NCBI RefSeq assembly: GCF_003610235.1
Contig: NZ_RAPR01000001.1
Location: 4,216,001-4,280,000, forward strand
DNA: 64,000 bases
Direction: 5' to 3'
DNA from: Catellatospora citrea
Lineage (GTDB): Bacteria; Actinomycetota; Actinomycetes; Mycobacteriales; Micromonosporaceae
Below are positions 36,602-45,737 of this stretch, in pieces. The position numbers and the translations under genes were made by a program. The number at the start of each line of letters is the position of its first letter. Position 1 is the first letter of the stretch. Under the pieces are notes generated by a model that worked only from the letters and a program-made list of their open reading frames with translations, did not search any database and was not told where the DNA came from.

Positions 36602-38002
<1,401 letters not shown>

Positions 38003-38017: not shown

Positions 38018-38410
38018 GTGCGCAGGCAGTGGGACGTGCTCGCGGTGATCTCCGCGGGCGGCGTGCTCGGTGCGCTGGCCCGCTATGCGGTGAGCCAGGC
38101 CTGGCCGCCCTCCCCCACCGGGTTCCCGTGGGGCATCTTCGGCGTGAACGTCAGCGGCTGCCTGTTCATCGGGGTGCTGATGGCGCTGGTCGCGCACGTG
38201 TGGCCGGGGCAGCGGCTGCTACGTCCGTTCCTCGGCACCGGCGTGCTGGGCGGGTACACCACCTTCTCCGCCTATACCGTCGACATCGTGCGGTTGGCGG
38301 ATGCCGGAGCGGTCGCGGTCGCGGCGGCGTACCTGGTGGGCACGCTGCTGGTCGCGCTGCCGGCGGTGTACTGCGGGATGGTGGTGACCAGATGGCTGGT
38401 ACGACGGTGA
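38018..38410 (+). CDS. crcB: Fluoride channel subunit CrcB/Fluc (first copy)
   Basis: The protein has 130 residues with four hydrophobic segments. Family motifs are [10 protein letters not shown] (14-23), [15 protein letters not shown] and [15 protein letters not shown]. Fluc proteins form dual-topology channels that export fluoride. GTG at 38018 lies 15 nt after the dnaB stop. The DUF190 gene overlaps its end by 19 nt. Two crcB copies in one operon usually mean a heterodimer of opposite orientation. Confidence 0.93.
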
Positions 38411-38715
38411 ACGGCCTGCGGCTGACGATCCTGGTCGGCGAGGGCGACCGGTGGCGGCACCGCCCCATGTACACCGAGATCGTGCACCGGGCCCACGCGG
38501 CCGGGCTGGCCGGTGCGTCGGTGCTGCGCGGCGTCGAGGGGTTCGGCACCCATTCGCGCATCCACACCGACCGGCTGCTGTCGCTGGCCGAGGAGCTGCC
38601 CATGATGGTCGTCATCGTGGACGCGGAGGAACGGGTCCGCGGCTTCCTGCCGCAGCTCGCCGAACTCAGCCTGGAGGGCCTGGTCATGCTGGACCCGGTC
38701 GAGGTGGTGCGGTGA
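38392..38715 (+). CDS. DUF190 family protein
   Basis: The protein has 107 residues from ATG inside the 3' end of crcB1. It is a small PII-like alpha/beta fold ([42 protein letters not shown]). DUF190 genes are regularly placed between or beside crcB genes, so a role as cytoplasmic regulator or accessory of fluoride export is likely but unproven. Its stop overlaps a GTG as GTGA, the first link of the repeat chain leading to crcB2. Confidence 0.88.
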
Positions 38716-38786
38716 GCGAGTCTCGCGAGCGAATCCGGTGGGCTCGGGCCCATCGTGACGACGAGCGAAGCGAGGGGGAGCGGTGA
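38712..38786 (+). CDS. Putative 24-codon micro-ORF, repeat copy 1
   Basis: GTG at 38712 overlaps the DUF190 stop (GTGA) with GAGGTGG upstream, and the frame ends at a TGA overlapping the next GTG. The peptide is basic and acidic ([19 protein letters not shown] at its end). Translation is plausible from the coupling geometry, but selection on the peptide is doubtful because the two copies differ mostly by amino-acid-changing substitutions. Confidence 0.35.
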
Positions 38787-38853
38787 GTGAGCCTTGCGAG
38801 CGAGTCCGGTGGGCTCGGGCGCATCGTGACGACGAGCGAAGCGAGGAGGAGCG
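38712..38853 (+). repeat. 71-bp tandem direct repeat, two copies
   Basis: Copies at 38712-38782 and 38783-38853 are identical at 65 of 71 positions. Each begins GTGAG, shares GGTGGGCTCGGG and GACGACGAGCGAAGCGAG, and ends in a purine-rich GGAGCG directly before the next start codon. The array fills the whole gap between the DUF190 gene and crcB2. A partly matching element precedes moeA. Confidence 0.93.
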
Positions 38854-38857
38854 ATGA
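38783..38857 (+). CDS. Putative 24-codon micro-ORF, repeat copy 2
   Basis: GTG at 38783 overlaps the stop of copy 1, with GAGGGGGAGCG as ribosome site, and its TGA overlaps the crcB2 ATG (ATGA). The peptide ends [15 protein letters not shown]. It continues an unbroken chain of 4-nt overlaps from the DUF190 gene to crcB2. Confidence 0.35.
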   Translation: MSEPCERVRWARAHRDDERSEEER

Positions 38858-39216
38858 CCGTCCTACTGGTGGCGCTCGGCGCGGCGGTCGGTGCGCCGCT
38901 GCGCTACCTGGTGGACCGGGCGGTGCAGGCGCGGCACGACGCGGTCTTCCCGTGGGGCACGCTGACCGTGAACGTGGCCGGTTCGTTCGTGCTCGGCCTG
39001 CTGGCCGGCGGCGCGCTGGCCGGGGCGGTGCCGGGCAGCGTGACGGCGCTGCTGGGCACCGGGTTCTGCGGCGCGCTGACGACCTACTCCACCTTCGGGT
39101 ACGAGACGGTCAAGCTCGTCGAGACAGGCAGCTTCGGCCAGGCCTTCACCAACGTCGCCGTCAGCGTGGCAGCCGGGCTGGCCGCCGCCGCGACGGGATA
39201 CGCCCTGACCGCCTGA
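38854..39216 (+). CDS. crcB: Fluoride channel subunit CrcB/Fluc (second copy)
   Basis: The protein has 120 residues with four hydrophobic segments and motifs GAAVGAPLRYLVD, WGTLTVNVAGSFVLG and GTGFCGALTTYSTFGYETV. Together with the first copy it should form the fluoride channel. The ATG follows GGAGGAGCG, supplied by the 71-bp repeat. Convergent with the GT-C gene; stops are 6 nt apart. Confidence 0.93.
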   Translation: MTVLLVALGAAVGAPLRYLVDRAVQARHDAVFPWGTLTVNVAGSFVLGLLAGGALAGAVPGSVTALLGTGFCGALTTYSTFGYETVKLVETGSFGQAFTNVAVSVAAGLAAAATGYALTA

Positions 39217-44457: not shown

Positions 44458-44553
44458 ATGGGCGAGCCTGTCCGGCTCGGTCCGGGTCATCCGGCGAGCG
44501 AGCGAGTAGGGCCAGGTCAAGTGGACGACGAGCGAAGCGGGGAGGGAGCATGA
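44458..44553 (+). CDS. Putative 31-residue micro-ORF coupled to moeA
   Basis: The frame from ATG at 44458 to TGA at 44551-44553 overlaps the moeA start as ATGA. Its end shares the 16-mer GACGACGAGCGAAGCG with the 71-bp crcB repeats (peptide VDDERSGEGA). AAGGAG abuts the ATG without a spacer, so initiation there is doubtful; an in-frame GTG at 44521 is an alternative. Confidence 0.3.
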   Translation: MGEPVRLGPGHPASERVGPGQVDDERSGEGA

Positions 44554-45737
44554 CCGCTCCTGAGGACTGGGTCTCGGCCCGCCGCGCGGTGCACGCCGCA
44601 GGCTGGCGGGCACAGCTCGCACCGGTCACCGTGCCGCTGGCCGAGGCCGACGGGCTGACCCTGGCCACTGCCCTGGCACCGCGCAGCGACCTGCCCGCCT
44701 TCCCCACGTCGAGCGTCGACGGCTGGGCACTGCGCGGTCGCGGCCCGTGGCGCGTCACCGGCCGGGTGCTGGCCGGCAGTGTGCCCGCGCCGCTGTCCGG
44801 CGACGGCGTCGCCGTCGAGATCGCCACCGGGGCCATGGTGCCCGAGGGCACGGAGGCGATCCTGCGGGTCGAGCACTCCACCCGCAGCGGTGACCTGGTC
44901 GACGGCACGCCGAAGAGCGAGCAGGAATGGCGGGTGCCGGGCGAGGAGGCCCGGGCCGGTGAGCCGCTGCTGCCCGCGGGCACGCCGGTCACCCCGGCGG
45001 TGATCGGTCTGGCCGCGTCCTGCGGCCATGACACGCTGCCGGTGCGCCCCGCGCCCCGGGCGGCGATGCTGGTCTTCGGCGACGAGCTGCTGACCGCCGG
45101 GCCGCCCGCCGACGGCCGCATCCGCGACGCGCTGGGCCCGTCCATCCCCGCCTACCTGCGGCGGCTGGGCGTGGCCTGCGAACCCGCCGCCGCACCGATC
45201 AAGGACACCCTGGACGCGCACGTCGCCGCGGTGCGGTCCGCGCTGGAGAGCGGCGTCGACCTGGTCTGCACCACCGGCGGCACCATGCACGGCCCCGTCG
45301 ACCACCTGCACCCGGCCCTGGCCGAGCTGGGCGCGTCGTACGTCGTCAACACGGTGGCGGTGCGTCCCGGCTTCCCGATGCTGATCGCCGCGGTGCCGCA
45401 GGGCGGGCGCACCCGCTTCGTCGCCGGGCTGCCCGGCAACCCGCAGTCGGCCGTGGTGGCCCTGGTGTCGCTGGTCGTCCCGCTGCTGGCGGGCCTGGCC
45501 GGCCGGCCCGAGCCGGTGCTGCCGCGGGTCACCCTCGGCGAGCCGGTGCCCGGCCGGGGCGACTACACCCATCTCGCGCTGGTCCGGATCGACCCCGTCG
45601 ACGGGCTCGCCCGGCCGGTGTCCCATGTGGGCTCGGCGATGCTGCGCGGCCTGGCCGGCGCGCGGGGGTTCGCCGTCATCCCGCCCGGCGCCACCGGCCG
45701 TGCCGGCGACGCCGTCGAACTGGTGGAGGTCCCGTGA
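44550..45737 (+). CDS. moeA: Molybdopterin molybdenumtransferase
   Basis: The protein has 395 residues with the MoeA layout: N-terminal domain (SSVDGWALRG), beta-rich domain II (VEIATGAMVPEG), MogA-like domain III (FGDELLTAG, CTTGGTMHGPVDH, GLPGNPQSAVVAL) and a C-terminal beta domain. It inserts molybdate into adenylylated molybdopterin. The catalytic-loop segment reads GGTMHGPVD where many MoeA have GGxSxGxxD, a small deviation. The ATG follows a GGGAGGGAGC site in the repeat-like leader. moaE overlaps its stop as GTGA. Confidence 0.93.
   Translation: MTAPEDWVSARRAVHAAGWRAQLAPVTVPLAEADGLTLATALAPRSDLPAFPTSSVDGWALRGRGPWRVTGRVLAGSVPAPLSGDGVAVEIATGAMVPEGTEAILRVEHSTRSGDLVDGTPKSEQEWRVPGEEARAGEPLLPAGTPVTPAVIGLAASCGHDTLPVRPAPRAAMLVFGDELLTAGPPADGRIRDALGPSIPAYLRRLGVACEPAAAPIKDTLDAHVAAVRSALESGVDLVCTTGGTMHGPVDHLHPALAELGASYVVNTVAVRPGFPMLIAAVPQGGRTRFVAGLPGNPQSAVVALVSLVVPLLAGLAGRPEPVLPRVTLGEPVPGRGDYTHLALVRIDPVDGLARPVSHVGSAMLRGLAGARGFAVIPPGATGRAGDAVELVEVP

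Follow-up and report, generated by a model that had tools for sequence, protein, structure and literature searches.

A MIRU-like mobile repeat family at gene junctions in Catellatospora citrea that probably carries a portable translation-coupling module

In a 64,000-nt stretch of the Catellatospora citrea genome (the window, to which positions refer unless a contig is named), a gene of the DUF190 family and the downstream crcB2 are separated by two tandem copies of a 71-nt repeat. These are probably copies of a mobile element that resembles the mycobacterial interspersed repetitive units (MIRUs), carries a portable module for translational coupling, and was inserted at a GTGA shared by the DUF190 stop and the crcB2 start. 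A hairpin occupies the last third of the unit, with the next start codon lying in its 3' arm, and this covarying start-codon hairpin is what the present analysis adds. A first-pass annotation of the window had described the geometry and the open frame of the repeat and had suggested that it may be mobile; that part of its account stands, while the hairpin and the MIRU design had been missed.

Chained Micro-ORFs at the crcB2 Junction

The two units (38712–38782 and 38783–38853, together spanning 38712–38853) are identical at 65 of 71 positions. When the tetranucleotides that they share with their neighbors are included, the units are 75 nt long, and each forms an open frame of 24 codons on the forward strand, running from GTG to TGA; these micro open reading frames (micro-ORFs), called from the sequence and a frame test, lie at 38712–38786 and 38783–38857. 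They are chained to each other and to their neighbors by overlapping codons. GTGA at 38712–38715 combines the DUF190 stop, which makes up the left side of the target site, with the start of unit 1; GTGA at 38783–38786 combines the stop of unit 1 with the start of unit 2; and ATGA at 38854–38857 combines the stop of unit 2 with the start of crcB2. Each unit also has a purine-rich stretch that resembles a ribosome site as read from the sequence, with a putative function in initiation: GAGGGGGA at 38772–38779 in unit 1 and GAGGAGG at 38843–38849 in unit 2, both on the forward strand. An overlapping stop and start accompanied by such a stretch is what is expected of a translationally coupled gene pair, and the locus has both. 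The first-pass description of this chain of frames held when the coordinates were re-read, as did its count of four amino-acid-changing differences between the units.

A Dispersed Family Positioned at Stop/Start Overlaps

Judged by sequence matching, the window repeat is a member of a dispersed family and not a local oddity. With the two window units as query, the 9.33-Mb host genome gave 18 matches. Profile R1, built from 22 units on sequence only with no structure, gave at least 111 at E ≤ 0.01, possibly an undercount, as scoring covered only 150 of the 20613 candidates from the first look. The motif CGAGCGNAGCGAGG followed by RTGA 3–9 nt further on occurs 78 times genome-wide, against 0 for the reversed pattern, and the spacing from motif to RTGA is identical in 77 of the 78 matches. 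Surroundings were taken for 108 of the 111 R1 matches (the other 3 are not included), and re-scoring these with nhmmer gave 101 matches at E ≤ 0.1 and 97 at E ≤ 0.01. The 97 units fall in 83 arrays, of which 70 are single, 12 double, and 1 triple (13 tandem).

The arrays sit where genes meet. Coding frames were called with a codon-usage score trained on 24 window ORFs, not from annotation, so single cases may be wrong. Among 56 complete arrays, meaning those with xTGA at both ends, 36 adjoin a stop on the upstream side as well as a start on the downstream side in coding frame. Of the remainder, 13 adjoin just a start and 7 just a stop, so every complete array adjoins at least one of the two. 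For comparison, the 757 RTGA sites of the window divide into 7 with stop and start, 185 with a downstream frame only (a class that includes internal in-frame codons), 21 with a stop only, and 544 with neither. Among the 27 incomplete arrays, 22 adjoin a downstream start. The predicted genome-wide enrichment of the element ahead of start codons is thus borne out twice, by the motif with its reversed control and by the contrast between the complete arrays (36 of 56) and the background RTGA sites (7 of 757).

A Frame That Is Kept and a Peptide That Drifts

The reading frame is conserved across the family. In the host, 70 units have xTGA at both ends; 65 of these have a length that is a multiple of three (69, 72, 75, 78, or 81 nt), and the micro-ORF is open in 63. 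Of these 65 units, 2 have internal stops in the micro-ORF frame; the corresponding numbers of units for the two remaining frames are 11 and 30. Length is likewise divisible by three in 20 of 21 units from other Catellatospora, 83 of 86 from other Micromonosporaceae, 7 of 8 from other families of the order Mycobacteriales, and 36 of 37 from a Mycobacterium-like genus, there at 69 nt.

The encoded peptide follows a different pattern. Its ends are conserved (MSERSER and DERSEE), its middle is essentially without constraint, and variability peaks at the second codon position in three of the four length classes tested (the host's own 75-nt class, the 84-nt class of Micromonosporaceae, and the 69-nt Mycobacterium-like class); the exception is the host's own 72-nt class, where the third position varies most. 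Since length and openness are conserved while the codon positions do not follow suit, it is the frame, rather than the peptide, that appears to be kept, which agrees with the earlier proposal that selection acts on the coupling geometry above the peptide. A conserved functional micropeptide would account for the preserved frame and length and for the conserved ends. It is a very improbable explanation given the variable second codon position, the nearly unconstrained middle, and a Pfam search of the micro-ORF that gave no family.

Among host arrays that are followed by a gene, 45 of 49 retain an unbroken micro-ORF frame, compared with 4 of the 7 that are not (P 0.035). The sample is small, and the direction is the one expected if selection were acting on the element in place.

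A Covarying Hairpin on the Next Start Codon

RNAalifold gave the first pointer to a hairpin in the last third of the unit. Its 5' arm lies 35–31 nt from the unit end, and the next start codon contributes its x and T to the 3' arm. In window unit 1 the 5' arm CATCGT (38751–38756) faces GCGGTG (38780–38785), which holds the GTG start of unit 2 at 38783–38785; in unit 2 the arm CATCGT (38822–38827) faces GCGATG (38851–38856), which holds the crcB2 ATG at 38854–38856. All four arms are on the forward strand and placed by the covariation register, with pairing checked in unit 1 and the hairpin present in the predicted fold of unit 2.

Evidence for the stem comes from the number of pairs that form across units that differ in sequence. 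In the host, 91 units with a right xTGA provide 84 distinct 3' ends. Of their 420 possible pairs 383 form, whereas 10000 shuffles give 338 on average (standard deviation 4, maximum 357). All five pairs are present in 58 of the 84, against 39 by shuffling and at most 47. The arms pair in independent combinations, including ATGCC/GGCAT, ATCGT/GCGAT, ACGCG/CGCGT, ACGAC/GTCGT, GTCGA/TCGAT, and ATGTC/GACAT, and in alignment A1 97.2% of cells pair, against 17–43% in slid registers. The base before TGA covaries with its partner, G mostly with C and A mostly with T. Units of other Micromonosporaceae, which are outside the model, give 385 of 435 pairs against 330 (standard deviation 5, maximum 345). 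Mycobacterium-like units, scored over seven pairs, give 251 of 259 against 229 (standard deviation 2.5, maximum 239), with a mild bias because some were found via model R2, which includes the stem. In the 24 of these units that did not enter the model, 166 of 168 pairs form, against 150.5; the 13 model units alone are weaker, at 84.6% against 77.3% over eight pairs.

The pairs that are not Watson-Crick indicate which strand matters. G.U outnumbers A.C by 21 to 3 in the host (rows with no other mismatch in the five pairs and at least three Watson-Crick pairs), 26 to 3 in other Micromonosporaceae, and 8 to 1 in the Mycobacterium-like units. Because G.U so far exceeds A.C, the sense strand is the one that pairs and is under selection. 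A few deviant host copies, at 4013426, 5133665, and 3367340 on contig C1, seem by eye to have much longer, near-perfect stems of about 10–13 bp that end in the start codon; they were left out of the hairpin test.

Several points weigh against the coupling-module interpretation. The stem is short and its loop is 23 nt; among the 87 units from other Micromonosporaceae only 44 form all five pairs, and no common stem is seen in 8 units from other families. The shuffle statistics ignore common descent. The minimum-energy fold of window unit 1 predicted in silico differs from the hairpin, while that of unit 2 shows it. Where a gene follows the array, the predicted probability of the hairpin foot averages 0.47–0.48; in the 7 arrays that lack such a gene the average is 0.70. 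Nor are stems more often intact before a gene (36 of 49 against 4 of 7, P 0.39).

The main rival gives the hairpin a role in DNA mobility. Under it the repeat is a selfish element only, the micro-ORF and ribosome site limit damage to operons, and the hairpin is a single-stranded DNA structure for some transposase, with no part in translation. This account is the less likely one, though its probability is not negligible. The hairpin is equally kept in arrays that lack a downstream gene, and recognition of a single DNA strand would likewise favor one strand over the other. Against it, the position of the 3' arm coincides with the start codon, whose first base changes together with the base that it pairs with.

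A Proposed Mechanism for Coupling

In the favored interpretation, that of a portable coupling module, the DUF190 stop and the crcB2 start would ancestrally have met at GTGA. The element would supply a frame that starts at the host overlap and whose stop overlaps the next start, together with a ribosome site within its final third. A ribosome leaving the DUF190 gene would start on the micro-ORF, open the weak hairpin as it translates, and end translation directly over the following start codon. Initiation by ribosomes arriving from elsewhere may be restrained by the hairpin, so that initiation of the next gene would stay dependent on translation of the preceding one. Because the element would replace the coupled junction that it splits, it could spread inside operons at little cost.

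Insertion History and Mobility

Comparison of filled and empty orthologous sites suggests that the element is mobile. Of 11 Catellatospora genomes, 6 have nothing but GTGA at the crcB2 junction, and 5 hold the element there. The window has two copies, Catellatospora coxensis at least two, Catellatospora paridis one, and Catellatospora vulcania one; in Catellatospora methionotrophica there is a 30-nt remnant that is still an open 9-codon frame. At two further loci the host has two copies where a relative has one. The suggestion in the first-pass annotation of a mobile or duplicable cassette thus finds support in the empty orthologous sites, the varying copy number, and the in-frame remnant.

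A tree of 12 sequences over 1290 flanking columns places the carriers in one clade (97/98). The units at the crcB2 junction share a spacer, so they probably descend from one insertion. Catellatospora sichuanensis, which has the empty site, is nested within the carrier clade (90/91, with the fork open); because it nests among carriers, it has likely, though not certainly, lost the element and reverted to GTGA. At the crcB2 locus, 7 units or part-units from four genomes have all 42 stem pairs intact. Four of the six pairs vary, and one has changed on both sides, from T-A to C-G, at the start-codon base. This maintenance of pairing through changes after one insertion argues against the hairpin serving mobility alone.

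The selfish-element account gains from the ends of the arrays. The left and right x of xTGA agree beyond chance (Fisher test, P 0.004 and 0.001 in two data sets, 2 CTGA arrays excluded), as target duplication would give. Within the genus, genomes that carry a Y1 transposase also tend to have more copies. Across 150 Micromonosporaceae genomes a Y1 transposase is present in 41, and these known users of such hairpins are missing from several copy-rich genomes, such as G100 and G133, which counts against the same account. Y1 transposase was considered as the mover of the family and rejected, as its presence does not track copy number by eye. The sole Y1 match in the host (G000:C3:79497–79859) contains an internal TAA and is therefore probably inactive.

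A last alternative dispenses with mobility: a local slippage duplication, with overlap codons arising by chance and no mobile family behind it. It would explain the tandem pair at the window locus and the variation in copy number, and it is contradicted by the dispersed matches, the empty sites, and the spread across family and order described below. We regard it as the least probable of the explanations considered. As the whole story, slippage is refuted by the census, the overlap positions, and the empty sites; the tandem copy number may still be due to it.

Distribution Beyond the Host

The family reaches well past Catellatospora. R1 matches are found in 100 of 150 Micromonosporaceae genomes, covering 29 of 44 genera, and in 177 of 397 genomes of the order. 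Model R2 matches in 125 of 396 genomes of one Mycobacterium-like genus of the order, presumably Mycobacterium itself, where a sister family has a 65-bp period and tandem copies (for example, at G543:C1:526162–526360). At a lax E ≤ 0.05, R1 itself gave matches in 154 of 198 genomes of the Mycobacterium-like genus; these are mostly weak and partial and were not counted. A scan of the phylum found matches in 7 of 296 genomes, of which 4 (host included) belong to the order and 3, weak and partial, lie outside it.

Comparison with Known Systems

MIRUs are the closest known counterpart, and the comparison covers their published descriptions. They are described as mobile repeats that insert at start codons with –4 spacing (PMC12548453); they hold small ORFs that overlap neighboring ORFs in the same direction and are said to lack dyad symmetry (PMC4473831); and they have been reported in 5' untranslated regions (PMC4128351). 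Their periods are 77 and 53 bp, with a range confined to M. leprae and the M. tuberculosis complex (PMC4213456), whereas PMC12548453 places them in many mycobacteria.

The likeness is extensive. Both are short dispersed units with tandem copies, variable copy number, and apparent mobility; both have a small ORF whose ends overlap its neighbors and insert at starts with –4 spacing; and the MIRU periods of 77 and 53, like the element's 71, 68, 74, and 65, are all 2 modulo 3. The differences are the taxonomic range, which for the element includes Micromonosporaceae and other families of the order, and the hairpin. The covarying stem with the start codon gives the element dyad symmetry, while MIRUs are described without it in PMC4473831; because of that statement, the element is best called MIRU-like and not a MIRU. 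The 65-bp-period family, in its 125 of 396 Mycobacterium-like genomes, can be set against the restricted MIRU range given in PMC4213456.

A broader proposal stands at roughly even probability. In it, an order-wide mobile family spreads with a complete coupling module made up of an in-frame relay ORF, a ribosome site, –4 overlaps, and a masking hairpin kept by compensatory change, and the classical MIRUs would be one branch of that family in which the hairpin was overlooked. In the open-access literature neither a hairpin in MIRUs nor an element of this kind from bacteria other than mycobacteria came to light, which is weak evidence of absence, as subscription papers mostly fell outside that scope.

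Repetitive extragenic palindromic (REP) sequences and other repeats derived from IS200/IS605 are short, dispersed, and non-autonomous, with a hairpin near one end and a tetranucleotide at the junction. The element shares all of these features. It differs in lying at gene starts and keeping a reading frame, and in that Y1 is absent from several copy-rich genomes.

Translationally coupled gene pairs offer a third comparison. PMC12548453, a 2025 review, sets out RNA-unfolding and scanning models of coupling, and pairs under the RNA-unfolding model resemble the element in their –4 nt overlap, structure at the downstream start, and purine-rich site. Structure around the downstream start is present in the element and predicted to be weak. 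What sets the element apart is that a dispersed repeat brings the arrangement, and with it the putative coupling.

Neighboring Features

The genes around the insertion are all on the forward strand. The upstream crcB1 (38018–38410; CrcB, fluoride channel family, PF02537, E 1.3e-25) overlaps the DUF190 gene (38407–38715; PF02641, E 1.3e-35) at 38407–38410, where the crcB1 stop and the DUF190 GTG again form GTGA; an alternative DUF190 start is possible at the in-frame ATG at 38392. Downstream, crcB2 (38854–39216) matches PF02537 at E 2.7e-28. One sub-threshold Rfam match inside crcB2 was judged to be chance.

The window also contains a degenerate second copy of the element on the forward strand at 44493–44553 (E 1.4e-5; nhmmer E 5e-3). 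It has lost its left end, lies about 45 nt past a moaC-like frame, and ends at the ATGA of a moeA-like frame (44550–45737) named from a reading of its translation.

Further upstream, the dnaB orthologues of C. sichuanensis and C. vulcania are about 1.5 kb longer than the window dnaB (36602–38002), the added sequence corresponding to position 37324/37325. The C. sichuanensis insert (L055:391–1917) has Pfam matches to Hom_end and LAGLIDADG_3 and is likely a DnaB intein that is absent from the window.

Implications

If the favored interpretation is true, this is a mobile element adapted to operon junctions by recreating the coupling that its own insertion would break, and such an adaptation would be a property of a large actinobacterial order and not of a few mycobacteria. 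The start-codon hairpin bears on the question of RNA unfolding versus reinitiation in translational coupling. Orthologous junctions of harmless soil bacteria, filled in some genomes and empty in others, would then be natural experiments on translational coupling that open this question to direct testing.
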